A stretch of 13,570 bases of DNA from an uncultured Porphyromonadaceae bacterium. Lineage in GTDB: Bacteria; Bacteroidota; Bacteroidia; Bacteroidales; CAMTPD01. Both the position numbers and the translations under genes were made by a program. Below are positions 1 through 13,549 of the stretch, piece by piece. The stretch spans positions 1 through 13,570 of the forward strand of contig CAMTPD010000009.1 of the NCBI GenBank assembly GCA_947074265.1. The letters run 5' to 3'. Every line of letters starts with the position of its first letter. The first letter of the stretch is position 1. Below the pieces are notes generated by a model, which saw nothing but the letters and a program-made list of their open reading frames with translations, did not search any database and was not told the DNA's origin.

Positions 1-2088
1 ATCAATCATAAACAATACGTAGCGAATGTCTACGCTGATGGTACGTTGCAATGCCGGTTCGAATGCGATATCGCTACTCATTGCTTCCCAGTTGCCGTCG
101 AAAGCAAGACCGATCAAGCGACCGTTGCCATCGAATACCGGGCTACCTGAGTTACCACCGGTGATATCGTTGTTTGAAATAAACGCAATGTTCAAATCAC
201 CGTTCTTGTTAGCGTACTGACCAAAGTTTTCTTTGCGGATAAGCTCAAGGATTTCCGGTTGTACAAAGAACTCGTCGTCTTCCGGGTTTTGTTTTTCCAA
301 GATACCTTTGCTTGTTGTAAAGTATGCATACTCTGCCGCATCGAAAGGAATATAACCTTTGATAGAGCCGTAGCTTAAACGCATCGTGAAGTTTGCGTCT
401 GAGTAGAAAATACGGTCAGGATACATCTGCATCAAACCTGCAAGGAACAAACGCTCGCCTTTCTCGATGTCGTAAGCATAACCCGAAAGATCTTGTTGCA
501 ATGCATAGTAAGCCATCATTACTGAGTTTGACAACTCTACAGCAGGGTCTTTTTGCAGTTTCTTGATACCGTCTTTAGAGCTTAGTTCTTTCTCGATGCT
601 AGCCAACGATGTAAGCTTTGTTTTAGCAAACACGTGGTCTACGTATTTTGCAAAGTCGCCTTTGTATTTCTTCATGATCGAAGGGAAGATCTCCGGCTGA
701 TACTGTGCAGGAACACGTTTTGCGCATAGTTCCATCATACGTACCATGGTTTTCTTATCCAACGAAGGTTCGTAATCTTTGAAGATCGGAGTCAACACGG
801 TTTTAGCATCTTCAAGAACTTGTGCGTTTGCTTGCTTGTCGTCAAGGCTTTCTACCGCTCTTGCGATACGAACCAACTCACAACCCGAAATCATTGTTTC
901 GCTCAAGTAAGTTGCAGCCTTGCGTAGCGAGTCGCTACCGGTGTAACCTTTCTCTAGCAATGGCAATACTTCTCCGTATAGTTCTTTGCGAGCAGGATCT
1001 GCGCTAACCCAAGTATTGAAGTTCTTTTCGATGTCTTGCTTGCGCTCGATTACACCAAGACGTGCAAGACCTTTGTTCATACCGATTGAGTTTTTCCAGT
1101 AGTTGGAACTACCTGCATATTTCGATGCATACTTGATGCGCGTAGCATCGTCGGCACGCATAGCTTCTTTCCAAATGTCTTGCTTCTCTCCTCTTACCTC
1201 GATACGCGGTTTGTTCGAGTCGTCGATGCGTTGTTGTACGCCCCATGATGAAAGATAGCGTTGTGTACTACCCGGGAAACCAATCGTCATCGCGTAGTCG
1301 TTTTCTTCGTAACCTTTCAAAGACACTTCCGGTACATAGTTTGGCTTGTATGGCTTGTTGTCTTTGTTAAATTCTGCCGGTTGGTTGGTTGCGTCTGCAT
1401 AAACACGGAACACAGAGAAGTCGCCCGTATGACGTGGCCACATCCAGTTGTCGGTGTCACCGCCAAACTTACCTACCGATGAAGGTGGCGCGAATACCAT
1501 ACGTACGTCTTTAAACACTTCGTATACCTGAACGTAGTATTTGTTGTTTGCGTAGTATGAATATACTTCTGCTTGTACAAACGGTTTCTTCGAAAGCGAG
1601 TCGCTGATCACTGTCATCACAGAGTCTGCTTTGCTCATGCGAGTAAACTCGTCGGTAGTTGTTTTTACCTCGCCCATGATGCGGTCGGTAACGTCTATTG
1701 TATTCTTCAAGAAGCGTACTTCTAGTCCTTCGATCGGAATTTCTTGTTCCATCGATTGCGATACGAATCCGTCTTTCAAGTAGTCGTGCTCTACCGAACT
1801 TTTCGACTGAATTGCACCGTAACCACAGTGGTGATTCGTAAAGATAAGTCCTTGATCAGATACCGCAATACCGGTGCATCCCCCACCAAATATTACAACC
1901 GCGTCGCTTACCGATGGGTTTGTTGTGCTGTAAAGACTATCGTAAGGAAGTGTGAATCCTAGCGCTTTCATTTGCTCAAGATTCTTTTTGCTTAGCTCAT
2001 TCAGCAAATACATACCTTCGTCTGCATAAGCTCCCTGAGCTGCCAATGCCACCGCACCGGCCAACCATAAACTTTTAAAATACTTCAT
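1..2088 (-). CDS. dpp7: S46-family dipeptidyl-peptidase, DPP7-type (3' end beyond window)
   Basis: This is a secreted or periplasmic serine exopeptidase that releases dipeptides from oligopeptide N-termini, feeding the peptide-based nutrition common in Bacteroidales. 696 codons are open to the window edge with no stop; S46 enzymes are usually about 710-720 residues, so only a short C-terminus is missing. Residues 1-22 form a signal peptide (cleavage after AYA, before DEG). The chymotrypsin-like triad is visible: His87 in TNHHCG, Asp223 in TGDFS, and Ser647 in GGNSGSP. Eighteen residues after the catalytic Ser is Gly665 (FDGNWE). In characterised S46 enzymes Gly at this site marks DPP7 (hydrophobic or broad P1), while Arg marks DPP11 (acidic P1). 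The start lies 9 bases after the upstream DUF389 stop, so the gene is probably the last of the ruvB cluster visible here. Family is certain; the DPP7 subtype is a motif-based inference. Confidence 0.93.
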   Translation of the reverse strand, partial: MKYFKSLWLAGAVALAAQGAYADEGMYLLNELSKKNLEQMKALGFTLPYDSLYSTTNPSVSDAVVIFGGGCTGIAVSDQGLIFTNHHCGYGAIQSKSSVEHDYLKDGFVSQSMEQEIPIEGLEVRFLKNTIDVTDRIMGEVKTTTDEFTRMSKADSVMTVISDSLSKKPFVQAEVYSYYANNKYYVQVYEVFKDVRMVFAPPSSVGKFGGDTDNWMWPRHTGDFSVFRVYADATNQPAEFNKDNKPYKPNYVPEVSLKGYEENDYAMTIGFPGSTQRYLSSWGVQQRIDDSNKPRIEVRGEKQDIWKEAMRADDATRIKYASKYAGSSNYWKNSIGMNKGLARLGVIERKQDIEKNFNTWVSADPARKELYGEVLPLLEKGYTGSDSLRKAATYLSETMISGCELVRIARAVESLDDKQANAQVLEDAKTVLTPIFKDYEPSLDKKTMVRMMELCAKRVPAQYQPEIFPSIMKKYKGDFAKYVDHVFAKTKLTSLASIEKELSSKDGIKKLQKDPAVELSNSVMMAYYALQQDLSGYAYDIEKGERLFLAGLMQMYPDRIFYSDANFTMRLSYGSIKGYIPFDAAEYAYFTTSKGILEKQNPEDDEFFVQPEILELIRKENFGQYANKNGDLNIAFISNNDITGGNSGSPVFDGNGRLIGLAFDGNWEAMSSDIAFEPALQRTISVDIRYVLFMID

Positions 2089-2097
2089 CTTGTTGTG

Positions 2098-3456
2098 TTA
2101 TTCTATAATTAATTTCACATTATCTACATCCGTTCGTGCCGACAACCATTCTTTGATCTTCTGGCGTTGCGCATCGTCGATGCGTCCGTCTACTTTCAAG
2201 TAAACAAGGATCAGGGTATCGGCTTGTTGATTCTTCAAATTTACGATTTCTGATTTATTGATCGATACATCTTGTACCGAAGGAAACAAAACTTTCATTT
2301 CCGGAGCCAATGCAAAGCTAAGCTCTGATACCGTACGGTACGACTCGAGACTACGCTGAAGCGAGTCGATCATTTGATCTTTCTGTTGTATGGTTTGCTC
2401 GCCCGATTTGTAAAGATCGGTCAATACCATCGACTTGAGTTCGTTGATGTCGGTATCCGGTCCCGAGAATCCTTGTTGCACAACCAGCGACATATTTCCC
2501 AGACCGTAATCTTTGAGCTTTTGTTTTGCTACGTCGATCGCCATTTCGGGTACTTTATCTCCTACCAGTACTACCTTTAGTTCTTTATCGCTACCATTAA
2601 ACATCACCTTCTTACTGATGATCTGTGTGCCCGGAAAGTCTAACTCTTTTGCTACATAATTCGCTACTTGCGAATTTAGAAACGATGTCCTGATCATGTT
2701 GTAGCTTAAGAAAAGACTTGGTACGATGGTAAAGAATACAATCACACCAATGTAGCGGGCTACGCGTTTCTCCTTTACTTTGTCGATAAGCGATATTTTG
2801 GAGAAGCGCAACAGACGTACCACGATCAGTGTGGATAAACTGATGAATACGGTGTTGATAAAGTATAAATAAAACGCGCCGAAGAAGTAGAAGAAGTTTC
2901 CGGTTGCAAGACCGAAACCTGCCGTACACAACGGCGGCATCAAGGCGGTTGCAATGGCAACACCCGGAATCACATTCCCTTTGAGCTTTGTTGAGCTGGC
3001 AACGATACCGGCCAAACCGCCAAACAAGGCTATAAGTACGTCGTAGATTGTAGGTTGTGTACGTGCCAACAACTCCGATTGTGCTTCGCTCAATGGCGAA
3101 ATAAAGAAATAAATCGTAGAGGTAAGTACACTAAACAACGTTGCGATGGCATAGTTCTTTGCCGATTTCTTGATCAAATCGATGTCGTTTATCCCTAGTC
3201 CGAGACCAAACCCCATGATCGGGCCCATCAGCGGAGATATCAACATGGCACCGATAATAACGGCCGTTGAGTTGGTGTTGAGACCAAGTGACGCAATGAA
3301 TGTTGCAAAGATCAAGACCCACAAATTCGCTCCTCTAAACTCAACTCCTTTATAGATACTGTCTATCGTTGCGCGTTCGTCATCTTTCTCTTGGTGAATA
3401 TCAAGAATACGCTTGAGGAATTCTTTTATTGAAAAATACACCTTGAATCGTTCCAT
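2098..3456 (-). CDS. DUF389 (TIGR00341-like) integral membrane protein
   Basis: This 452-residue membrane protein has unknown function. The DUF389 hydrophobic core spans roughly residues 40-250. Its hallmark stretches are a Gly/Asn/Ser-rich segment with IIGAMLISPLMGPIMG (about 67-82) and GGLAGIVASSTKLKGN (about 146-161), followed by an Ala/Met/Pro-rich helix (VAIATALMPPLCTAG). I see about six or seven membrane segments between residues 44 and 252. After these comes a soluble tail of about 200 residues (253-452) with mixed alpha/beta character and a predicted coiled region near 355-375; its side of the membrane cannot be told from sequence. It sits 21 bases after the flippase stop and 9 bases before the DPP7 start, so co-transcription is likely. 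A transport role is sometimes assumed for the family, but nothing here shows a substrate. Confidence 0.88.
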   Translation of the reverse strand: MERFKVYFSIKEFLKRILDIHQEKDDERATIDSIYKGVEFRGANLWVLIFATFIASLGLNTNSTAVIIGAMLISPLMGPIMGFGLGLGINDIDLIKKSAKNYAIATLFSVLTSTIYFFISPLSEAQSELLARTQPTIYDVLIALFGGLAGIVASSTKLKGNVIPGVAIATALMPPLCTAGFGLATGNFFYFFGAFYLYFINTVFISLSTLIVVRLLRFSKISLIDKVKEKRVARYIGVIVFFTIVPSLFLSYNMIRTSFLNSQVANYVAKELDFPGTQIISKKVMFNGSDKELKVVLVGDKVPEMAIDVAKQKLKDYGLGNMSLVVQQGFSGPDTDINELKSMVLTDLYKSGEQTIQQKDQMIDSLQRSLESYRTVSELSFALAPEMKVLFPSVQDVSINKSEIVNLKNQQADTLILVYLKVDGRIDDAQRQKIKEWLSARTDVDNVKLIIE

Positions 3457-3477
3457 AATACAATAGTGGCAATTAGA

Positions 3478-4974
3478 TTACTTGATAAATTTATTAATGA
3501 TCGGTACTTGCGACAACGGAAGGTCGCGCTTTACCATAAAAGCAATATAAATAAATAGTAAACCTGTACGTGCGGCGAGTTTTAAGAATAAGTTCTCGAT
3601 AGGCAGATACATTCCGATGGCATACAATACCATTGCCAGCGAGAAATATATAAAGAACGATTTCAGATCATACTTGATCGGATACTTCTTTTGCCCGATA
3701 AAGTAAGAGGCCAACATCATTACCAAATTGCAAATAAGCGATGCCCATGCACAGGCCATGAAACCGTAAACGGAAACAAAGCATACAAGTATCCCTACGG
3801 TAATGGCCAATCCGGTAAATGAGAAATAGGCTCCCCACTCTGTTTTATCGATTAGTTTATACCACAACGACAGGTTGAAATAAATACCGAAGAATGTTTC
3901 TCCCATCATTACCAACGGTACTACCGGCAACCCTACATAATATTCGGGGGTAACAAGTAGCTTGAAGACATCGATGTAAAACATGACTCCTATAAATATT
4001 AACAAGGAAAAGATGATAAAGTATTTCATCGCTTCCGAATAAAGCACTTTATTGTCTGCTCCTTTGCTTTTGGCAAAGACAATGGGTTCGTACGCAAATC
4101 GAAATGCTTGATTAAACATCACGATTACCATGGCCAGTTTGAGGCAGGCTCCATATATACCCAATTGCGCATCGGCAAACTCGCGTTGCTGATCGTTGAA
4201 AAGCATTGGGAAGAGAATGGTTCCGATGGTTTTGTTGGCTTGTCCGGCAATACCGAGTATTAAGATCGGATAGGTGTACCTTAGCATCTTCTTCAACAAA
4301 CTCCAGTCTGCCTTGCTCTTCAAGCCCGAGAAATCGGGAATAAGCGACAGCAATATAATACAGGATGCAATCAGATTGGATACGAATACATAACCTACAC
4401 CGTAGTCGGGCTTGTAGAACCAACTGACAAGTGCCGGTGCTTTTTCGTATATCCACGGACAGGCTATGATAAAGAAGAGGTTGAAAAAGATAATGGCTCC
4501 GACATTGAATAGCCTTAACGTCGCAAACTTAATGGCTCGCTTCTTGTAACGTAAGTAAGCGAACGGAATGGCACAAAATGCATCGATTGCAATAATCACC
4601 GCCATTATCATGATGTAATCTTTGTGATCCGAATACTCGAGGTATTTACTGATCGGAGAAAGAAAAAGGGCTATCAATCCTACAAACAGCGCAGATGTAG
4701 AGGCCAGTGCCGCTAATGCTGTTGCATAAACTCCGTTGGTATTGGTTGTGTTCTTTTCATTTATATACCTGAAGAATGTGGTTTCCATCCCATAAGTCAG
4801 GATTACAAACAAGAGTGCAACCCAACTATACAGATTGGTAATGATACCGTTGTCGCTTTCGGTAAACATGCGCACATACATCGGAGTAAGCAGCCAGTTG
4901 AGCAATCGCCCCACTATGCTGCTTACTCCGTATATGGCCGTATCTTTCGCAAGGTTTTTAATTCCTTCCGCCAT
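3478..4974 (-). CDS. Oligosaccharide/polysaccharide flippase family protein (MOP superfamily)
   Basis: This 498-residue, almost wholly hydrophobic protein has about 12-14 predicted membrane helices. It is typical of the polysaccharide-biosynthesis (Wzx/RfbX-like) branch of the MOP exporter superfamily, which moves lipid-linked glycans across the inner membrane. The N-terminus carries the usual amphipathic lead-in and first helix (residues 3-33, KNLAKDTAIYGVSSIVGRLL followed by a hydrophobic run). A central cytoplasmic loop is rich in Lys (about 215-233), and the C-terminal half has the polysaccharide-biosynthesis C-terminal pattern. The start ATG is 6 bases after the ruvB stop. No glycosyltransferase or sugar-nucleotide genes are adjacent, so it does not sit in a capsule or O-antigen cluster. 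It looks like a housekeeping flippase attached to ruvB. The substrate is unknown. Confidence 0.87.
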   Translation of the reverse strand: MAEGIKNLAKDTAIYGVSSIVGRLLNWLLTPMYVRMFTESDNGIITNLYSWVALLFVILTYGMETTFFRYINEKNTTNTNGVYATALAALASTSALFVGLIALFLSPISKYLEYSDHKDYIMIMAVIIAIDAFCAIPFAYLRYKKRAIKFATLRLFNVGAIIFFNLFFIIACPWIYEKAPALVSWFYKPDYGVGYVFVSNLIASCIILLSLIPDFSGLKSKADWSLLKKMLRYTYPILILGIAGQANKTIGTILFPMLFNDQQREFADAQLGIYGACLKLAMVIVMFNQAFRFAYEPIVFAKSKGADNKVLYSEAMKYFIIFSLLIFIGVMFYIDVFKLLVTPEYYVGLPVVPLVMMGETFFGIYFNLSLWYKLIDKTEWGAYFSFTGLAITVGILVCFVSVYGFMACAWASLICNLVMMLASYFIGQKKYPIKYDLKSFFIYFSLAMVLYAIGMYLPIENLFLKLAARTGLLFIYIAFMVKRDLPLSQVPIINKFIK

Positions 4975-4980
4975 AATGTT

Positions 4981-6009
4981 TTATTCAAATAAGAATCCCT
5001 GATCTCCACCCACACGAGTGCGACCGAGATGTTTATATGCTAATTCAGTAACTTCTCGTCCCCGTGGTGTACGCTTGAGGAAACCTTCTTTGATTAAGAA
5101 CGGTTCGTAAACTTCTTCCAGGGTTCCCGGGTCTTCACCCAATGCCGTTGCAATGGTAGTGAGTCCTACGGGACCTCCGCCAAACTTGTCGATCAGTGTT
5201 GTGAGTACTTTGTTGTCTACTTGATCGAGTCCGTATCGGTCGATGTTCAATGCTTCAAGTGCATATCTTGCAATCTCAACTTCGATATCTCCCGATCCTT
5301 TTACTTGAGCAAAGTCTCTTACGCGACGAAGTAAGGCATTGGCTATACGGGGAGTTCCGCGACTACGCCCGGCAATTTCAACTGCCGCACTCTGTTCGCA
5401 TGCTACTCCGAGCAAACCGGCCGAACGCAATACAATCTTTGTCAACGTATCCATGTCGTAATACTCGAGGTGCATGTTGATTCCGAAACGGGCACGCAGC
5501 GGACTTGTCAACAAACCACTTCGTGTGGTAGCTCCTACGAGTGTAAAGGGATTCAGATCGATTTGAATGGAACGGGCACTTGGTCCTTTGTCGATCATGA
5601 TGTCGATGCGGTAATCTTCCATTGCCGAATAGAGGTATTCTTCAACAACCGGACTCAAACGGTGGATCTCGTCGATAAACAATACGTCGTTTGGTTCGAG
5701 TGATGTAAGGATACCGGCTAGGTCGCCCGGCTTATCAAGTACAGGGCCCGAAGTTACTTTAAAGCCTACTCCGAGTTCGTTTGCAATAATGTTGGATAAT
5801 GTTGTTTTCCCCAATCCGGGAGGTCCGTGCAACAAAACGTGGTCGAGAGCTTCGCCGCGCATACGCGCTGCCATTACAAAGATTTGAAGGTTTTCAACCA
5901 CTTTGTCCTGACCGCTAAAGTTTTCGAATGCCAGCGGGCGCAACGCATTTTCGTAATCGCGCTCTTTCTCGACGGGACGCTGGTCGCGTATATCAAAACT
6001 GTCGTTCAT
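4981..6009 (-). CDS. ruvB: Holliday junction branch migration DNA helicase RuvB
   Basis: RuvB is the AAA+ motor that, with RuvA, drives branch migration of Holliday junctions during recombination and repair in the cytoplasm. The protein is 342 residues, the normal length. Visible motifs in order are Walker [10 protein letters not shown] (62-70), Walker B FIDEIH (111-116), sensor 1 GATTRSG (159-165), the arginine-finger region SPLRARFG with Arg174, sensor 2 RGTPR (217-221), and the C-terminal winged helix with [10 protein letters not shown] (274-283) and the TPRGREVT segment. No key residue is missing. A TAnnTTTG promoter lies just upstream (6031-6038), after the terminator of the preceding gene. 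ruvB is therefore probably the first gene of a unit that continues into the flippase, DUF389 and dpp7. Confidence 0.98.
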
Positions 6010-6030
6010 AGCTCACTTGTTAATCTACTG

Positions 6031-6061
6031 CAAACGTACATAATCTTTTCCATTTGCCACA
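6031..6061 (-). promoter_or_regulatory. Predicted Bacteroidota-type promoter of ruvB
   Basis: On the minus strand TACGTTTG (6038-6031) is an exact match to the Bacteroidota -7 element TAnnTTTG. Nineteen bases upstream is TGTG, three of four bases of the -33 TTTG element. Transcription would begin about 15 bases before the ruvB ATG. The site lies between the terminator at 6082-6115 and ruvB, which fits a separate start for the ruvB cluster. Confidence 0.5.
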
Positions 6062-6081
6062 GATTTGCAAGGTAGTCTTCA

Positions 6082-6115
6082 TAAAAAAGGAGACCCTCCC
6101 GAAAGAAGATCTCCT
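6082..6115 (-). terminator. Rho-independent terminator of the GH109-like gene
   Basis: Read on the minus strand, AGGAGA (6115-6110) pairs with TCTCCT (6093-6088). The stem can continue inward by mixed Watson-Crick and G-U pairs to a TTCG loop, and it is followed by six T (6088-6083). It begins 21 bases after the stop of the GH109-like gene and separates that gene from ruvB. Confidence 0.8.
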
Positions 6116-6136
6116 ATCTATTTATATCCTTTTTGC

Positions 6137-7504
6137 TTATTCTGCAAAAGTGAGTCCTTGTAACTTGTTCCACGCTCCACGCGTAAAATCGGGAATCTCT
6201 ACCGGAATGCTTCCATTCTTTACCGACAACTCGGTAAGCTCCGTAAGACACGACCACTCGGCAGCGTCGTATACGTCTTGATCGAGCGGAAGTCCGTTGC
6301 GCAAGCAATAGATAAGTCGGTAGTCCATGATGAAGTCCATTCCGCCATGACCTCCTACTTTGCGTGCTTTTTCTCCTACTTCTTTGGTAATGGGATGCTC
6401 GTATTCGGCAAGTACTTGTTTGCGTTGTTCGTCGTTCAAGAAACCATGAGCATCCGGATCAAATGCCAATCCCTCCATCGGATACTTTTGGCAATATCCT
6501 TTGGTTCCGCTTACGGTATGCAAACGACTATACGGACGCGGACTGGTAACATCGTGTTGCACCATAATGGTTTTTCCTTTTTCGGTACGGATGATGGTGG
6601 TGTTCATGTCGCCGCGTGCATAGTTTCCTTTGGCTTGTTTCGAGTCTTTGCCAAATTTATTCTCGGCATATTGTGTCATCCCTTTCTGATCTGAAGATAC
6701 AGAAACGAGGTAGTTCATTTTGTCTCCGCGGTGAATGTTCATGATTTGGCAGATGGGGCCGAGTCCGTGCGTAGGATACAAATTGCCGGTATGCTTGGCA
6801 TTGTAATCGAGTCGCCACATATTATAATAGGCATCTTTGTCGAAGTTGGATGAGCGCAAGTCGTGTATGTAGGCTCCTTCGCCGTGTACAATGTCGCCAA
6901 ATTTGCCTTGTTGTGCCATGTTGAGTGTTGCCATTTCGAAGAAGTCATAACAACAGTTTTCGAGCATCATGCAATGACGGCGTGTTTGCTCGGCAGTATT
7001 TACAAGATCCCAACATTCGCTAACAGACATGGCAGCGGGTACTTCTACTGCGACATGCTTGCCTTGTTTCATGGCATAAACGGCCATCGGTGTATGGGCC
7101 AACCATGGTGTGCAAATGTAAACCAAGTCGATATCGTCTCGCTCGCATACTTTCTTCCAGTCGTTCTTGTTCGTATAAATATCGGCCGGTTGGTGTTTGT
7201 TTTTCTTGAGCGTGTTTTGTGCCCGCTCTACTTTCTCGGGTACGACATCGCATAGTGCTTTTACTTCTACTCCTTCGAGCGACATAAAACGATATACGGC
7301 TCCGCTTCCCCGATTGCCCAATCCGATAAATGCGACGCGAACAGTAGGTATCGGATCACAGGCTAGTTTTAATACATCGGTTTGTCCGGCTGGTCTTTTA
7401 GGTGTTTCAAGCTTGATAGCTCGAGGGTTCTCTGCATACATGATTTGCATTGCAAATAATAAAACGAACAGACCTATTGTCTGTACGATGTTTTTCATGC
7501 TCAT
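6137..7504 (-). CDS. Secreted Gfo/Idh/MocA protein of the GH109 (alpha-N-acetylgalactosaminidase-like) type
   Basis: This resembles the NAD-dependent GH109 glycosidases, whose characterised Elizabethkingia member removes terminal alpha-linked GalNAc (for example from blood-group A glycans) by a transient redox mechanism. Residue numbers here count from the longer start at 7552. A signal peptide is visible (MKNIVQTIGLFVLLFAMQIM then YA-EN), so I take the ATG at 7504 (7498 is equally possible). The upstream ATG at 7552 would put 16-18 polar residues before the signal. The Rossmann nucleotide motif GLGNRG is at 77-82. The GH109-like central region holds EVPAAMS (160-166), LENCCYDFFE (187-196), HDLRSSNF (220-227) and GNLYPTHGLGP (246-256), where Tyr249 and His252 match the Y-P-T-H pair of the family active site. 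It appears to be a single-gene unit with its own promoter and terminator. Substrate is inferred; some relatives are plain oxidoreductases. Confidence 0.88.
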   Translation of the reverse strand: MSMKNIVQTIGLFVLLFAMQIMYAENPRAIKLETPKRPAGQTDVLKLACDPIPTVRVAFIGLGNRGSGAVYRFMSLEGVEVKALCDVVPEKVERAQNTLKKNKHQPADIYTNKNDWKKVCERDDIDLVYICTPWLAHTPMAVYAMKQGKHVAVEVPAAMSVSECWDLVNTAEQTRRHCMMLENCCYDFFEMATLNMAQQGKFGDIVHGEGAYIHDLRSSNFDKDAYYNMWRLDYNAKHTGNLYPTHGLGPICQIMNIHRGDKMNYLVSVSSDQKGMTQYAENKFGKDSKQAKGNYARGDMNTTIIRTEKGKTIMVQHDVTSPRPYSRLHTVSGTKGYCQKYPMEGLAFDPDAHGFLNDEQRKQVLAEYEHPITKEVGEKARKVGGHGGMDFIMDYRLIYCLRNGLPLDQDVYDAAEWSCLTELTELSVKNGSIPVEIPDFTRGAWNKLQGLTFAE

Positions 7505-7601
7505 TCGCTTACTTGTTTTTGAAGTTGTTATTTGGTCTGAATATTGTTTCAATCTGGATAATCGTTTATCAAACAGTGGTCTATTGATTAAGATTGTTTT
7601 A

Positions 7602-7631
7602 CAAAAATACGAAAGAATATAAAACTTGCAA
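7602..7631 (-). promoter_or_regulatory. Predicted Bacteroidota-type promoter of the GH109-like gene
   Basis: On the minus strand TATTTTTG (7609-7602) matches TAnnTTTG exactly, and ATTG/TTG (ending at 7629) lies 19 bases upstream in the -33 position. The leader to the ATG at 7504 would be about 90 bases. No clear terminator is seen between the end of alkD (7659) and this promoter, so read-through from alkD is also possible. Confidence 0.5.
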
Positions 7632-7658
7632 TTTATAATTGGCTCAATATCAATGATT

Positions 7659-8438
7659 CTATTTCTGTTTTGCCAGATTCATATAATAATATCGTTTCGA
7701 TTCGTCGAAATGCTCGATTGCATAGCGCAATGCTGTGCGTGGCATCGTTGCCGCAAATTCATCTAGGAACTGACACAAGCGTTCGCGATCTTTCTTTCCT
7801 ACTTCCCGCAATACCCATCCTACGGCTTTGCGCATCAAATCGTGCTCATGGTAGACAAGGATACGGGCCAATTGCAATGCATCGCCTAGATCTCCTTTTC
7901 GCACAAAGGCCAATGTTGTTACAATGGATATGCGTTGCTCCCAAAGCAGACTGCTTTTTGCAAGTTGGTACAGGAGATCTCTATTGCGCTCTTTCAGATA
8001 AGCTCCCAAAATCTTATCGGCCGATAGGTCTACAAGGTCCCAATTGTTTATTCGGGTAGTATTCGATAAGTAGAATTGAACAATCTCTTCTTGGTAAGCT
8101 TCGTCTGCTTTTTTATATTGCTCGATCAAGATCATCAATGCTACTAATCTGCATTCGTGGAAAGGAGAGTGTATCAGTTTTTGAATTTCGCTGATGGGTG
8201 TGGCTTTATATGCTTTGGCTACTTTGCGCGATTCGGGCACAACTATGCCGAGAAAAAGATCGCCTTCTCCGTATTGTCCTTTTCCTGTTTTGAAGAAACG
8301 CATCAGGTGAGTGGCTTTTTCGGGATTTCCTAAAAACTGCAATGCGTTCTCGATCTCTTTTGCCGTGCAAATAATCTCGGTTGTGCCGGTATCGTTACTT
8401 ACCGATTTCGTTTTCGAATTGTGGGTGTGCATAGTCAT
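7659..8438 (-). CDS. DNA alkylation repair protein, AlkD-like HEAT-repeat DNA glycosylase
   Basis: This 259-residue all-helical protein belongs to the DNA alkylation repair (AlkC/AlkD) family, which excises positively charged alkylated bases such as 3-methyladenine and 7-methylguanine. The family is recognised by FFKTGKGQYGEGD (48-60) with downstream VPESRKVAK, by ECRLVALMIL (95-104) and by the helix NNWDLVDLSADKILG (131-145). The residues matching the active site of Bacillus cereus AlkD (Trp109, Asp113, Arg148, Trp187) are present with similar spacing: Trp133, Asp137, Arg169 and Trp208. The N-terminus before about residue 25 is polar and probably disordered. A start at Met3 (8432) is possible. 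It is the leftmost-reading gene beside the large central gap and has its own predicted promoter. Confidence 0.9.
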   Translation of the reverse strand: MTMHTHNSKTKSVSNDTGTTEIICTAKEIENALQFLGNPEKATHLMRFFKTGKGQYGEGDLFLGIVVPESRKVAKAYKATPISEIQKLIHSPFHECRLVALMILIEQYKKADEAYQEEIVQFYLSNTTRINNWDLVDLSADKILGAYLKERNRDLLYQLAKSSLLWEQRISIVTTLAFVRKGDLGDALQLARILVYHEHDLMRKAVGWVLREVGKKDRERLCQFLDEFAATMPRTALRYAIEHFDESKRYYYMNLAKQK

Positions 8439-8458
8439 CGTTGTTGCTTTTAATACTT

Positions 8459-8489
8459 CAAAGATAGTTTACTTTTGTCTTCATTGAAA
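8459..8489 (-). promoter_or_regulatory. Predicted Bacteroidota-type promoter of the alkD-like gene
   Basis: On the minus strand TATCTTTG (8466-8459) is an exact TAnnTTTG match. TTTC, three of four bases of TTTG, lies 19 bases upstream (8489-8486). The expected transcript starts about 15 bases before the ATG at 8438, similar to the arrangement at ruvB. Confidence 0.5.
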
Positions 8490-8574
8490 ACGTTGTTCGA
8501 TGTCCTTTTTGCAGGAATCGAAAGGATGTATTTTGGTGTAATTTTAGAGCCGATAATTGTGATAATATACATTA

Positions 8575-8650
8575 GTTATCAACAACCATCAACGTTGTCA
8601 ATATACTCATAACTAGACGAAAGCATAACTATTAACAAGGTTATCAACAA
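8575..8650 (+). repeat. Paired 11-base direct repeats containing DnaA-box-like TTATCAACA
   Basis: GTTATCAACAA occurs twice, at 8575-8585 and 8640-8650, 65 bases apart and in the same orientation. TTATCAACA differs from the TTATCCACA DnaA-box consensus at one position. Between them CATAACTA occurs twice (8608-8615 and 8624-8631), 16 bases apart. The whole stretch is AT-rich. Confidence 0.65.
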
Positions 8651-8732
8651 TTCGTTTATAAGCATCACCATGAGTATTTATATACTATATGAACAACTAA
8701 TTATTACACATTTAACAACGAGGCTAAACTCG

Positions 8733-8866
8733 CTGAGAATTGCGTATTTGATTCGCGACGAACAGTTGTGCGGATAGATTGAATTCTCAGAGAACAAAAC
8801 CATGCATGGTTTTTATGCTCACGTAGAAAAAGTGCAACCTTCGTTGTCCGCACAAAGGAACTTTGT
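8733..8866. repeat. Cluster of crossing inverted repeats
   Basis: CTGAGAATT (8733-8741) is perfectly complementary to AATTCTCAG (8782-8790). TTGTGCGGA (8766-8774) is perfectly complementary to TCCGCACAA (8847-8855). The two 9-base stems interlock rather than nest. ACAAAG-GAA-CTTTGT (8852-8866) forms a further small hairpin overlapping the last arm, and CGAG-GCTAAA-CTCG precedes the set at 8719-8732. This may be structured RNA, protein-binding DNA or chance; no known RNA family was recognised. Confidence 0.5.
8796..8813. repeat. Perfect 18-base palindrome
   Basis: AAAACCATGCATGGTTTT is fully self-complementary and is followed by one more T. It could bind a dimeric protein or, as RNA, form a short stem with a T/A-rich tail acting as a weak two-way terminator. 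It lies in the central gap between the arms of the longer inverted repeats. Confidence 0.6.
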
Positions 8867-9021
8867 TGGTATGACTGCATAGTTGTGTATGTTTGCGATG
8901 TTAACAATGGGGGGCTTTTGATCGAAATAGATAAACAGTCTATTTTATTTAAATTTGAATCCTTATAATATTTCGAAGCTACGCTTCTGTGTTCAGCGCA
9001 AAAAGCTCTATCTTCGTTTTA

Positions 9022-9029
9022 TAGTTTTG
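9022..9029 (+). promoter_or_regulatory. Possible -7 element upstream of the spmAB fusion gene
   Basis: TAGTTTTG matches TAnnTTTG, about 38 bases before the ATG at 9068. No TTTG-like -33 box is seen 18-21 bases upstream, so this is weaker than the minus-strand promoters. A second exact -7 match, TAAATTTG at 8950-8957, is an alternative giving a leader of about 100 bases. Confidence 0.3.
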
Positions 9030-9067
9030 ATACAAATATCACGAACCGCTTAATCAGATCTAGCAGG

Positions 9068-10306
9068 ATGGTTTTAAACTACATTTGGATTTCATTCTTC
9101 CTCATCGCTTTTGTCGTTGCCATCGGAAAAGCGATCTTTCTTGGAGATCTCGCTATCTTCGGCGAAATAATCAACAGCTCGTTTACAACAGCTAAAAGTG
9201 CTTTCGAAATCTCGCTCGGGCTAACGGGTGTCTTAACCCTTTGGTTGGGGATTATGAAGATTGGAGAAAACGGGGGCATGGTTCAGATGTTTGCCCGACT
9301 GGCTGCACCGCTTTTCGGAAAGTTGTTTCCATCGCTGCCGAAAGATCATCCGGCTACCGGTTCTATCTTTATGAACATATCGGCCAATTTGCTTGGGCTC
9401 GACAATGCGGCCACACCGATGGGATTGAAAGCAATGCAGGAGATGCAGGAACTGAACAAGCAGAAAGATACGGCTTCGGATCCGATGATCATGTTTCTTG
9501 TTCTCAATGCTTCGGGACTTACATTGATTCCGATCAGTGTAATGGCGTATCGCGCACAACTCGGAGCTACTAATCCGTCGGATGTTTTCTTGCCGATATT
9601 AATCGCAACGTTTGCTGCTACCGTTGCCGGCATCGTTGCCGTTTGTATCAAACAACGCATCAAAGTATTTGATAAGACACTGATGTCTTTCTTCGGTATT
9701 ATTACCGCAATCATCGTAGGTTCGTTGTATGCCTTCAATCGCATGACGCAAGAAGAAGTTTCTCTTTATTCATCTTTTATAGCCAATTTAATACTTTTTG
9801 GAGTGATTGTTGGTTTTATAATAAGTGCGGTAAGAAAGAAAATAAATGTGTACGACTCGTTTATCGAAGGTGCGAAAGACGGATTCAAAACGGCCGTTAC
9901 AATCATTCCGTATCTGGTGGCAATACTCGTGAGCATCGGAATGTTTCGAGCATCGGGCGCGATGGATTACCTGATCGATGGAATCGCCGCTTTGTTTACT
10001 GCAATGGGAATGAACAGCGACTTTGTGGCTGCTTTGCCTACGGCTTTTATGAAACCGCTAAGCGGTAGCGGTGCGCGCGGTTTGATGATTGACACGATGA
10101 ATCATTACGGAGCCGACTCTTTCGTGGGCCGACTATCATGTATATTCCAAGGAGCTACCGACACTACGTTTTACATCGTAGCCGTTTATTACGGTAGCAT
10201 CGGCGTAAAAAATACGCGCTACACGATTTCATGCTCGTTGCTGGCCGACTTGTTCGGAATCATCGCGGCAATTGTAATCGCGTACTTGTTCTTTCAAATT
10301 ATATAA
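9068..10306 (+). CDS. Fused SpmA-SpmB spore maturation/nucleoside recognition (Gate domain) membrane protein
   Basis: This 412-residue inner-membrane protein carries both halves of the Bacillus SpmA/SpmB pair in one chain. The SpmA-like half (about 1-195) has the motif NISANLLGLDNAATPMGLKA (103-122). The SpmB-like half (about 215-412) has LPTAFMKPLSGSGARG (323-338) followed by a Gly/Ala-rich helix with QGATDTTFYI. Each half belongs to the nucleoside-recognition Gate family and has several hydrophobic helices. Spm proteins act in spore-core dehydration in Bacillus, but Bacteroidota do not sporulate, so the role here must differ; a transport or channel role is plausible but unproven. The ATG at 9068 fits the family N-terminus (MVLNYIWI, then a membrane helix). 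ybeY follows after 10 bases, suggesting co-transcription. Confidence 0.92.
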   Translation: MVLNYIWISFFLIAFVVAIGKAIFLGDLAIFGEIINSSFTTAKSAFEISLGLTGVLTLWLGIMKIGENGGMVQMFARLAAPLFGKLFPSLPKDHPATGSIFMNISANLLGLDNAATPMGLKAMQEMQELNKQKDTASDPMIMFLVLNASGLTLIPISVMAYRAQLGATNPSDVFLPILIATFAATVAGIVAVCIKQRIKVFDKTLMSFFGIITAIIVGSLYAFNRMTQEEVSLYSSFIANLILFGVIVGFIISAVRKKINVYDSFIEGAKDGFKTAVTIIPYLVAILVSIGMFRASGAMDYLIDGIAALFTAMGMNSDFVAALPTAFMKPLSGSGARGLMIDTMNHYGADSFVGRLSCIFQGATDTTFYIVAVYYGSIGVKNTRYTISCSLLADLFGIIAAIVIAYLFFQII

Positions 10307-10316
10307 ATACAATCAT

Positions 10317-10748
10317 ATGGCAGTAAGTTATTACGCTGAAGACATAAAGATGCCTTCACTTAAACGCAGAGAAACGACAAAATGGATTCGCGAAGTAGCA
10401 GCAGTTCATCAAATGAAGGTGGGCGATGTTGCCTACATCTTTTGTTCGGATGAGAAGATCCTTGAAGTAAACAAGGAGTATCTTCAACACGATTATTACA
10501 CCGATATCATCACGTTCGACTACACAGAAGATGGCGTTATCAACGGCGACGTGTTTATCAGCCTTGATACCGTGAAAAGTAATGCGGAGGAGTTTGGTGT
10601 AACGTTCGACCAAGAGTTGCATCGAATCATTATTCACGGCATTCTTCATCTTTGCGGCATCGACGACAAAGGTCCGGGCGAAAGAGAAAACATGACAGCT
10701 AAAGAGAACGAAGCTTTAGCGTTATTAAACAATACGGCATCACTCTGA
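10317..10748 (+). CDS. ybeY: Endoribonuclease YbeY (rRNA maturation factor)
   Basis: YbeY is a small metal-dependent endoribonuclease involved in 16S rRNA 3'-end maturation and ribosome quality control in other bacteria. The 143-residue length is normal. Visible features are NKEYLQHDYYTDIITFDY (52-69, the conserved TDIITFDY-type segment), GDVFISLDT (77-85) and the metal motif HGILHLCGIDD (107-117). His107 and His111 are in place; the third ligand position (residue 117) is Asp rather than the His of the H-x3-H-x5-H form, a change I believe is common in Bacteroidota. The C-terminal ENMTAKENEALALL is typical. It starts 10 bases after the spmAB stop and ends in TGA, 49 bases before mnmG. Confidence 0.95.
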   Translation: MAVSYYAEDIKMPSLKRRETTKWIREVAAVHQMKVGDVAYIFCSDEKILEVNKEYLQHDYYTDIITFDYTEDGVINGDVFISLDTVKSNAEEFGVTFDQELHRIIIHGILHLCGIDDKGPGERENMTAKENEALALLNNTASL

Positions 10749-10763
10749 ATGCTTGAGATATAG

Positions 10764-10771
10764 TATATTTG
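10764..10771 (+). promoter_or_regulatory. Possible -7 element upstream of mnmG
   Basis: TATATTTG matches TAnnTTTG exactly and would give a leader of about 20 bases before the mnmG ATG. No good -33 box is seen 18-21 bases upstream, which is inside the end of ybeY. mnmG may also be read from the upstream spmAB-ybeY transcript. Confidence 0.35.
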
Positions 10772-10797
10772 CATTCGAGTTTACATGAGCAAAAAAT

Positions 10798-12675
10798 ATG
10801 GATTTTAAATACGACGTAATTGTAGTCGGTGCCGGACATGCCGGTTGCGAGGCAGCAACAGCTGCGGCAAACCTCGGTTCGAAGACGCTTCTCATCACAA
10901 TGGATATGAACAAGATTGCACAAATGAGTTGCAATCCTGCCGTTGGCGGTATCGCCAAAGGTCAAATCGTGCGTGAAATAGATGCGTTGGGCGGCAACAT
11001 GGGTGTAATCACCGACAAAACTGCTATTCAATTCCGAATGCTTAACTGCTCTAAAGGTCCTGCAATGTGGAGCCCGAGAGCACAAAGCGACCGCGAGAAG
11101 TTTAGCAACGAATGGAGAGAAGTAATTGAAAATACGCCAAACTTATACATGTGGCAAGATGCCGTTCGCAATCTCATTGTTGAAGACAATGTGGTGAAAG
11201 GCGTGCGCACGTATATGGGAGTTGAGTTTTATGCAAAAACAGTAGTCCTTACAAACGGAACTTTCCTAAACGGACTTATCCACATCGGACGCCAGCAATT
11301 TGGCGGCGGTCGTATGGCCGAGCCTGCAACGCATGGTATCACCGAGCAATTGGTCGAACTAGGAATGGAAGCCGGACGTATGAAAACGGGAACTCCTGTT
11401 CGCATCGATGGTAGAAGTATCAACTTCGAATTGGCCGAAGAGCATACGGGAGATATGGACTTTCACAAGTTCTCTTACCTTACTCACGAGCCAAAGACAT
11501 TAAAACAACGCAGCTGCTGGATGGTTTATACCAATCCGGAAGTGCATGAGATATTGAGAAGCGGTCTTGACGACTCGCCTCTTTACAACGGACAAATTCA
11601 AAGTATCGGTCCGCGTTATTGCCCAAGTATCGAAACGAAGATTGTTACGTTTGCAGAGCGCGAAAGACATCAACTGTTTCTTGAGCCGGAAGGAGAAAAT
11701 ACACAAGAGTATTATCTAAACGGATTCTCTTCTTCGCTTCCACTCGAAGTACAGCTCGAAGCATTGAAGAAAGTTCCGGCATTGAAGGATGTACACATCT
11801 ACCGTCCGGGATACGCAATCGAGTACGACTACTTCCCACCAACGCAGTTGAAGCATACGCTTGAAACGAAGCAAATCGAAAACCTTTTCTTTGCCGGACA
11901 GATCAACGGAACTACCGGATATGAAGAAGCAGCCGGACAAGGTTTGATGGCAGGGATCAATGCCCACCAGAAATGCATCGATGGAGAGCCGTTTGTATTG
12001 GGACGTGATGAAGCGTATATCGGCGTACTTATCGACGACCTTGTAACAAAAGGTGTAGATGAGCCATACCGTATGTTTACTTCGCGTGCCGAGTATCGCA
12101 TCTTGCTGCGCCAAGATGATGCCGATATGCGATTGACGGAAAAAGGTTTCAACCTCGGCTTAGCAACGCAAGAGCGTTACGACCTCCTTGTTGAAAAGCG
12201 TGCGCATCGTGATCGTATCATTGAGTTTGCAAAGACCTATTCGATCAAGCCTCAATATATAAACGAAGCACTCGAACAACGTGGCACCTCTCCGCTCAAA
12301 CAAGGTTGCAAATTGTATGATCTTGTTTTGCGTCCGCAGTTGAACTTATACGATATCGCCGAAATGGTTCCGGCCTTCAAAGAAGAGCTTGATAAAACTC
12401 CTGAAGACAGAAAAGCAGAAATCATTGAAGCGGCAGAGATCTTAATGAAATACGACGGATACATTCAACGCGAACAGATGATCGCCGACAAGATAAACCG
12501 TCTTGAGAACATCAAGATTAAAGGACGTTTTGATTACAAAGAAATCAAATCTCTATCGACCGAAGCAAGACAAAAGCTTTCGGCTATTGATCCCGAAACG
12601 ATTGCTCAGGCAAGCCGTATTCCAGGGATATCGCCAAGCGATATAAACATTCTTTTGGTTCTCTTAGGAAGATAA
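10798..12675 (+). CDS. mnmG: tRNA uridine-5-carboxymethylaminomethyl modification enzyme MnmG (GidA)
   Basis: With MnmE, this FAD- and NADH-dependent protein installs the carboxymethylaminomethyl group on wobble U34 of certain tRNAs. The 625-residue length is normal. The FAD-binding Rossmann motif VVGAGHAGCEAA is at 9-20, MSCNPAVGGIAKG at 43-55 contains the conserved Cys45, and the second conserved Cys is Cys275 in GPRYCPSIET. The FAD-contact segment GQINGTTGYEEAAGQG and a helical C-terminal domain ending LSTEARQKLS...GISPSDINILLVLL complete the family pattern. No residue appears to be lost. The ATG at 10798 leads directly into the Rossmann strand, so the start is secure. It is followed by a terminator and a parS site. 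mnmG (gidA) lies beside the origin in several bacterial groups. Confidence 0.98.
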   Translation: MDFKYDVIVVGAGHAGCEAATAAANLGSKTLLITMDMNKIAQMSCNPAVGGIAKGQIVREIDALGGNMGVITDKTAIQFRMLNCSKGPAMWSPRAQSDREKFSNEWREVIENTPNLYMWQDAVRNLIVEDNVVKGVRTYMGVEFYAKTVVLTNGTFLNGLIHIGRQQFGGGRMAEPATHGITEQLVELGMEAGRMKTGTPVRIDGRSINFELAEEHTGDMDFHKFSYLTHEPKTLKQRSCWMVYTNPEVHEILRSGLDDSPLYNGQIQSIGPRYCPSIETKIVTFAERERHQLFLEPEGENTQEYYLNGFSSSLPLEVQLEALKKVPALKDVHIYRPGYAIEYDYFPPTQLKHTLETKQIENLFFAGQINGTTGYEEAAGQGLMAGINAHQKCIDGEPFVLGRDEAYIGVLIDDLVTKGVDEPYRMFTSRAEYRILLRQDDADMRLTEKGFNLGLATQERYDLLVEKRAHRDRIIEFAKTYSIKPQYINEALEQRGTSPLKQGCKLYDLVLRPQLNLYDIAEMVPAFKEELDKTPEDRKAEIIEAAEILMKYDGYIQREQMIADKINRLENIKIKGRFDYKEIKSLSTEARQKLSAIDPETIAQASRIPGISPSDINILLVLLGR

Positions 12676-12700
12676 TCCACACCAAATAGATATCTTTAAA

Positions 12701-12761
12701 ACTCCTCTTTCCGACTTCTCGCAACCCTAACGCCAGAATCAGGAAGAGGAGTCTTTTGTTT
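12701..12761 (+). terminator. Rho-independent terminator after mnmG
   Basis: ACTCCTCTTTCC (12701-12712) pairs with GGAAGAGGAGT (12742-12752) with one bulged T, giving an 11-pair stem around a loop of 29 bases, followed by CTTTTGTTT. It lies 25 bases after the mnmG stop. Its T-rich tail runs directly into the parS palindrome. Confidence 0.75.
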
Positions 12762-12772
12762 CACGTGAAACA
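12757..12772. other. parS centromere-like site (ParB binding site)
   Basis: TGTTTCACGTGAAACA is a perfect 16-base palindrome identical to the canonical bacterial chromosomal parS sequence (consensus TGTTNCACGTGAAACA). ParB binds and spreads from such sites to direct chromosome segregation with ParA and SMC. parS sites are normally concentrated near the replication origin. It lies between mnmG and the adenine deaminase gene, touching the tail of the mnmG terminator. I found no second copy in the window. Confidence 0.93.
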
Positions 12773-12811
12773 TTAACTAAGTTGTGTTAACTTCTTAAAA
12801 TTAAAAGCGTA

Positions 12812-13549
12812 ATGAATAATGAATTAAAGCAGATAACGGGGAACATCGTGGATCTCGTATCAAAAGAGATATATGGTGCCATCGTTACGATCGAAGGCGG
12901 AAAGATTACGAACATCGAGCGTACAGGTAAAGACGAAGGACACTTTTTGATGCCTGGTTTTATTGACGGGCATGTGCATATCGAGAGCTCAATGACTACT
13001 CCTTCTAACTTTGCGAAGGCGGCCGTGAAGCATGGAACCATTGGTGTGGTAACAGACCCGCACGAGATTGCAAACGTTATGGGTATTGAAGGAATTGATT
13101 ACATGATCGAAAATGCTGAAGGCATTCCTTTCTACTTTTGCTTCGGTGCGCCATCGTGTGTTCCTGCTACTCCGTTCGAAACTTCGGGTGCAAAACTAGA
13201 TGCTGCAGACATCGAAAAGTTGATGAAGAGAGACGACATTCATTTCCTTGCAGAGGTTATGAACTTCCCTGCCGTTGTATATAACGATGCAGATATGCAT
13301 GCGAAACTAAACGCTGCGAAGGTTAACAACAAGCCGATCGACGGTCATATTCCGGGTATCGACGGAGACCTTCTTAAGCAGTATGTAGCATGTGGAATTA
13401 CAACCGACCACGAATGCGCAACGCTAGAAGAAGCGATCGAGAAGTGTGATCTTGGTATGAAGATCCAGATTCGTGAAGGTAGTGCGGCAAAGAATTTCGA
13501 AGCCTTGCACCCACTCTTCAAAGACCACGGCGATATGACAACGCTTTGA
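12812..13549 (+). CDS. ade: Adenine deaminase, N-terminal part, ended by an in-frame TGA
   Basis: Ade deaminates adenine to hypoxanthine in purine salvage and belongs to the amidohydrolase superfamily. The first 245 codons match the family closely: MPGFIDGHVHIESS (47-60, metal ligands His54 and His56), TDPHEIANVMG (81-91), AEVMN with Glu148, DGHIPG with His179, TTDHE with His200, and REGSAAKNFEALHPL (221-235). Family members are usually about 540-600 residues, but codon 246 is TGA (13547-13549). The same frame then reads Ser-Asp-Glu-Ile-Gln-Gln-Ala to the window edge, resembling the family Cys-Ser-Asp-Asp/Glu metal motif, so the stop replaces a probable Cys codon. Without the part after the stop the catalytic Asp is lost. 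Whether this is a pseudogene, an error or recoding cannot be told here. The start at 12812 fits the family. Confidence 0.85.
   Translation: MNNELKQITGNIVDLVSKEIYGAIVTIEGGKITNIERTGKDEGHFLMPGFIDGHVHIESSMTTPSNFAKAAVKHGTIGVVTDPHEIANVMGIEGIDYMIENAEGIPFYFCFGAPSCVPATPFETSGAKLDAADIEKLMKRDDIHFLAEVMNFPAVVYNDADMHAKLNAAKVNNKPIDGHIPGIDGDLLKQYVACGITTDHECATLEEAIEKCDLGMKIQIREGSAAKNFEALHPLFKDHGDMTTL

Follow-up and report, generated by a model that had tools for sequence, protein, structure and literature searches.

Does the palindrome that separates mnmG from an ade-like gene at this locus serve as a chromosomal centromere, and does it mark the replication origin? We analysed the window, the whole stretch of 13,570 bases, in which TGTTTCACGTGAAACA forms a perfect palindrome at 12757-12772 and is assigned to no strand. 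The 16-mer starts 81 bases past the mnmG stop codon and ends 39 bases ahead of the ade start, within intergenic bounds set by the mnmG stop at 12675 and the ade start at 12812. All 16 positions of TGTTTCACGTGAAACA agree with the chromosomal parS consensus (Livny et al. 2007, as cited in passages of PMC10197239 and PMC7333895), confirming the preliminary description, which had reported a full consensus match between the two genes. We annotated the 16-mer as parS on this sequence match and on its positional conservation. The gene that adjoins parS in relatives, mnmG (gidA), occupies 10798-12675 on the plus strand (Pfam GIDA, E 3.4e-164), and its closest named matches, among the best 80 of 590 candidates, come from Dysgonomonas and Parabacteroides at 76% identity, in keeping with a source genome of the order Bacteroidales. 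Here and in some relatives ybeY lies 5′ of mnmG (10317-10748, plus strand; Pfam YbeY), and the downstream flank is an ade-like amidohydrolase ORF (12812-13549, plus strand; Pfam Amidohydro_1). This ORF encodes 245 aa and its stop codon falls just short of the contig end. Adenine deaminases are usually longer than 245 aa, and misassembly at the contig edge may explain the shortness.

Could such a match arise by chance? The window contains a single match to the 16-mer even at ≤3 mismatches. Shuffled windows searched at ≤3 mismatches gave a mean of 0.10 matches, with at least one match in 19 of 200 shuffles; because they were run at that tolerance, the chance of an exact match lies outside what they measure. 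The exact palindromic 16-mer is expected ∼5e-4 times in 2.19 Mb (2.185e6/4^16). The preliminary description had proposed a genome-wide scan for the 16-mer and its one-mismatch forms, which returned one copy: at ≤1 mismatch the 16-mer is unique in the source MAG (2,185,330 bases, 422 contigs, 61% complete). At 2 mismatches one more match appeared elsewhere in the MAG, and the reversed control likewise gave one. These two stray matches speak for a chance origin of the 16-mer; against an expectation of ∼5e-4 per genome, we regard that origin as practically negligible.

We compared the mnmG region of 54 other genomes of the order, one per family and with mnmG found in each, counting as parS-like any 16-mer with ≤2 mismatches and as near any site within 300 bp of mnmG. 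A near site was present in 49 of the 54 loci, lying only 3′ of mnmG in 32, only 5′ in 7 and on both sides in 10. In 382,571 bases, these loci held 67 sites near mnmG, 3 elsewhere and no match to the reversed pattern. Random 600-bp windows placed off the mnmG edges captured a site in 0.245 loci on average and in 2 at most (up to 54 loci). The conserved position beside mnmG, occupied in 49 of 54 families where random windows averaged 0.245, is a stronger argument than the chance figure. A chance occurrence was rejected on this comparison, and the earlier judgement that a full 16-base match is improbable by chance is borne out by both lines of evidence. Five loci had no near site at ≤2 mismatches (G001, G016, G007, G008 and G056); the 3′ flank of G001 spans just 295 bases, and mnmG of G016 is truncated by the contig end. 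A whole-genome scan of 60 genomes of the order, including the source MAG, gave a match at ≤1 mismatch in 29 genomes and a reversed-control match in two. At one locus per genome, mnmG lay inside the fetched 2-3 kb at 25 of the 29 matching loci, the exceptions being L008, L013, L019 and L029.

The pattern extended beyond the order. Among the best 80 of 590 MnmG relatives, all Bacteroidota by name, a few of them under candidate names, 70 loci carried a near site (3′ in 55, 5′ in 6, both sides in 9) and 10 had none at ≤2 mismatches; the 716,932 bases of these same 80 loci held 85 near sites, 23 farther ones and no reversed-pattern match. The near sites of Roseivirga, Aquirufa and a Cytophagaceae MAG lie 5′ of mnmG, and six Chryseobacterium loci (L119, L122, L125, L126, L131 and L136) have a site at both mnmG ends. 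In the first five of these six, two exact parS sites bracket mnmG about 1.9 kb apart. A second parS-like site, 0.6-1.2 kb beyond the mnmG end, was seen at 14 loci (L079, L083-L086, L090-L092, L094, L099, L100 and L107-L109), mostly Prevotella and Bacteroidaceae, so that parS would seem to flank the following gene on both sides. Mismatches fell almost entirely at positions 1, 5, 12 and 16, which took 91 of 95 in the 67 order sites and 92 of 94 in the named set; the preselection of sites at ≤2 mismatches restricts the number of mismatches, not their placement.

We scanned nine named Bacteroidota genomes with TGTTYCACGTGRAACA at ≤1 mismatch and found 2-3 sites per genome. All 21 sites lay within 11.2 kb of mnmG on the same contig, 16 of them ≤300 bp away and the remaining five at 1.6 to 11.2 kb, while the reversed control of TGTTYCACGTGRAACA matched two of the nine genomes, once each. 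The 5,196,111-base chromosome of Bacteroides fragilis Q1F2 has two sites, at 4,587,252 and 4,597,162. The scatter round the chromosome that had been named as contrary evidence was thus unseen in these nine genomes, and the relatives support the parS identity first proposed for the 16-mer.

These distributions also bear on a regulatory explanation, namely that the palindrome is a transcription-factor operator, CACGTG inside a longer palindrome, that regulates mnmG, ybeY or ade. The site is indeed intergenic, it ends close ahead of the ade start codon, and one weak promoter-like match adjoins it (1 found, 0.8 expected). However, among the named loci (best 80 of 590) the Ade piece of the window was matched beside mnmG in only 9 of 80, whereas the site was found in 70 of 80 and on either side of the gene. 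The 2-3 sites per genome all fall in the mnmG neighbourhood in the nine named genomes, and the ParB proteins of relatives have R173 and, mostly, G201 (see below). An operator is therefore very unlikely in our estimate.

We wondered whether the palindrome might instead act in the transcript, forming another terminator hairpin or stabilising the mnmG 3′ end, its likeness to parS being secondary. A predicted intrinsic terminator hairpin of mnmG spans 12701-12752 on the plus strand, with an 11-bp outer stem (12701-12711 paired with 12742-12752), and is followed by the putative U-tract TTTTGTTT at 12754-12761 (plus strand), which shares 5 bases with the left end of parS. Folding of the 12676-12811 RNA gave -30.6 kcal/mol (z -4.17), and 0 of 200 shuffles were equally low. 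A simple terminator scan of the window did not list the mnmG hairpin, probably because its loop is above the limit of the scan, and a search of the window against Rfam was negative. The hairpin ahead of the site folds well, but the preliminary description had transcription probably stopping just before the site; since the U-tract enters the left parS arm, termination would fall within the margin of parS, not ahead of it. The placement of the terminator is a local detail: in 31 of the 42 order relatives with a 3′ site, the site follows the last mnmG codon by ≤20 nt, and hairpins were detected ahead of the site in 6 of 42 and beyond it in 16 of 42, the window (a 43rd row) having one before only.

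A role in RNA would fit the fold, in which the palindrome forms a 6-bp stem right after the mnmG hairpin, and it would fit the position of the palindrome just past the mnmG stop in most relatives. Among 3′ sites of the order set, the stem-breaking combination C5/A12 (6 of 50) was also rarer than T5/G12 (12 of 50). The named set reverses this comparison, with C5/A12 in 22 of 68 and T5/G12 in 12 of 68, and the two sets together give 28 versus 24. Because the order and named sets point in opposite directions, RNA pairing is not clearly the conserved feature. The loci of the order with a site solely 5′ of mnmG (7 of 54) or on both sides (10 of 54) also argue against an RNA element, and we hold this explanation to be as improbable as an operator.

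If the palindrome is parS, a ParB partner is expected. Of the 60 genomes of the order, 57 gave a ParB match, 55 of them above the family cut-off (the source MAG is counted in the 60, not in the 57), and so did all nine named genomes. The source MAG gave no ParB with either the family model or a B. fragilis ParB query, which decides nothing, as the MAG is 61% complete. Elsewhere, G032 has a site and no ParB match, and G007 has ParB and no near site. In the 98% complete G056 (L312), ParB gave no match and mnmG has no parS-like site beside it; both parts of the system may have been lost together. In B. fragilis, parA adjoins parB, which is located at 178,385, about 0.78 Mb from parS, and the ParB protein aligns with ParB and Spo0J proteins of solved structure.

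We surveyed the specificity residues of these proteins at 39 loci (30 order, 9 named), of which 33 were readable by a motif search accepting either Arg or Gln at Caulobacter position 173. Arg was found at the R173 position in 33 of 33 ParBs; the G201 position holds Gly in 31 of 33 (8 read by eye from printed motifs) and Ala in 2 of 33, and 27 of 33 have Lys at position 184. According to the passages of PMC7383237 on specificity, R173 and G201 are ParB-type and Q173 and R201 Noc-type, whereas Lys at 179 and 184 is nearly invariable in Noc and variable in ParB. Judged by these residues, the ParBs of relatives would have parS-type rather than Noc-type specificity. The order keeps ParB and parS although all 31 genomes searched, including the source MAG, lack a match to canonical SMC (SMC_prok_B) above the cut-off; weak matches below the cut-off occurred in all of them, and 10 of 14 control genomes scored above it. 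The passages of PMC10197239 on condensins likewise report that none of the known condensins was found in either of its Bacteroidetes genomes. Since no SMC of the 31 order genomes reaches the cut-off, ParB is not expected to load canonical SMC in these bacteria.

Does the site mark the origin? GC skew was sampled in stretches, over the whole chromosome for B. fragilis alone and over single contigs of 0.8-1.2 Mb for three other relatives. In three genomes, the sampled GC-skew origin falls ∼50 kb or less from mnmG-parS. In Roseivirga seohaensis, the 369-389 kb sample includes the cumulative skew minimum; parS maps to 386.7 kb and dnaA to 516 kb of this contig. In Chryseobacterium vrystaatense, where single samples are noisy, the minimum lies between the 720-740 and 760-780 kb samples and the parS sites at 755.5 and 757.4 kb. 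In an order member (G014), the skew changes at ∼376-400 kb and parS is at 423 kb. The skew flip of B. fragilis does not coincide with parS but lies ∼100 kb from it, and dnaA of strain Q1F2 is at 3,643,897, ∼0.85 Mb off. The early proposal that the site is origin-proximal thus draws its support from sampled skew in four relatives, not from the source contig, and the skew data support a predicted location of parS near the replication origin.

Published maps are consistent with this location. The passages of PMC11278836 and PMC12843772 on the origins of two Flavobacteriaceae use Ori-Finder and GC skew to place them at mnmG or adjacent to it; the text of PMC11278836 states explicitly that the origin is not at dnaA, and a figure legend in the same article calls mnmG ter, contradicting that text. 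The Hi-C passages of PMC10197239, which cover 12 genomes from mouse gut (two from Bacteroidetes), report that most parS sites cluster where the secondary diagonal crosses.

DnaA boxes gave a mixed picture. Clusters, defined as 4 or more boxes in 400 bp, occurred at 4 of the 80 named mnmG loci (best 80 of 590), L121, L125, L128 and L140, all of them 2.5-3.4 kb downstream of mnmG; the L140 cluster packs 10 boxes into 300 bp. No cluster was found in the 64 loci that we grouped as Bacteroidales by name, nor in B. fragilis between 4.40 and 4.76 Mb. In the Chryseobacterium locus L207, a cluster lies at ∼127.8 kb and the parS of the contig at 755 kb, i.e. far from mnmG. Because of the B. fragilis stretch and the L207 cluster, DnaA-box clusters are neither present at every mnmG nor exclusive to it.

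In the window itself, the site lies ∼3.7 kb from a central gap between divergent genes, a distance that had been stated correctly. This gap (8439-9067) is AT-rich and contains two identical copies of GTTATCAACAA, at 8575 and 8640, each including the DnaA-box-like TTATCAACA. The cumulative GC skew of the window stops falling, i.e. changes sign, at about 8439-9067, and the sign change also tracks gene orientation. A cluster of 4 or more DnaA boxes was absent from the gap, and the whole window has 5 boxes of the wider pattern. The gap may be an origin element, or it may reflect a mere effect of gene orientation. DnaA-box-like 9-mers (TTATCCACA, ≤1 mismatch) occur 10 times in the window against 2.96 expected, a number reached by 1 of 200 shuffles; the ten are dispersed from 234 to 12681 and unclustered.

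Taken together, conservation beside mnmG, the ParBs of relatives and the nearby skew origins make an origin-proximal centromere, paired with a distant parAB operon, the most likely identity that sequence comparison suggests for the site. We consider it highly probable that the 16-mer is a chromosomal parS centromere that has been kept by mnmG across much of the phylum and is served by a distant parAB through ParB clamping and ParA-driven segregation. A ParB dimer encoded by the distant operon, which in the source MAG presumably falls in the missing part of the genome, would bind the 16-mer, take CTP, clamp and slide into the flanking mnmG and ade; ParA would move the ParB-parS complex, and the origin region would be segregated first. 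CTP-dependent spreading and ParA-driven movement are known from ParABS model species, and the passages of PMC7333895 on segregation describe how ParB nucleates at parS and spreads to neighbouring DNA and how ParA moves the complex, the origin region first.

The site itself is an ordinary chromosomal parS; its anchoring to mnmG is the interesting part. We lean towards a broader scenario for Bacteroidota, in which an ancestral mnmG-parS block marks the true origin, dnaA and parAB have moved away from it, and the centromere has stayed by mnmG, served in trans by its protein genes and, at least in Bacteroidales, without canonical SMC condensin. We found no statement of a phylum-wide mnmG-parS linkage in the literature searched; its likeliest source, Livny et al. 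2007, was outside that search, and the passages of PMC2768785 and PMC13342612 proved irrelevant to the site. If the scenario is true, mnmG-parS rather than dnaA is the right origin landmark for Bacteroidota genomes and metagenome bins, where records may set the origin at dnaA against the skew (PMC11278836, in its passages on the origin, is an example). A short motif tied to a nearly universal gene would then be a simple marker of origin and centromere in fragmented genomes, and the mnmG-side site tells where to map ParB in bacteria that gave no canonical SMC above the cut-off. The arrangement also raises the question why the centromere stays with mnmG while the genes of its own proteins do not.

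In many other phyla, gidA/mnmG, parAB and oriC are grouped together. The parS described here differs from the usual ParABS parS in that it is anchored to mnmG and, where this was measurable (B. fragilis), does not lie beside parAB. It resembles the Flavobacteriaceae origins of PMC11278836 and PMC12843772, which are mnmG-linked and agree with GC skew; each of those reports concerns a single genome, and a word search of the main texts returned no mention of parS. The Noc-binding site (NBS) of Firmicutes is a related palindrome bound by a ParB paralogue. Like Noc, most ParBs of relatives have Lys184; unlike Noc (Q173, R201), they have R173 throughout and Gly201, or Ala in two. The site is most like the chromosomal parS of ParABS systems: it agrees at 16 of 16 positions, it occurs in few copies, and in relatives it is origin-proximal and accompanied by a ParB of the parS type.
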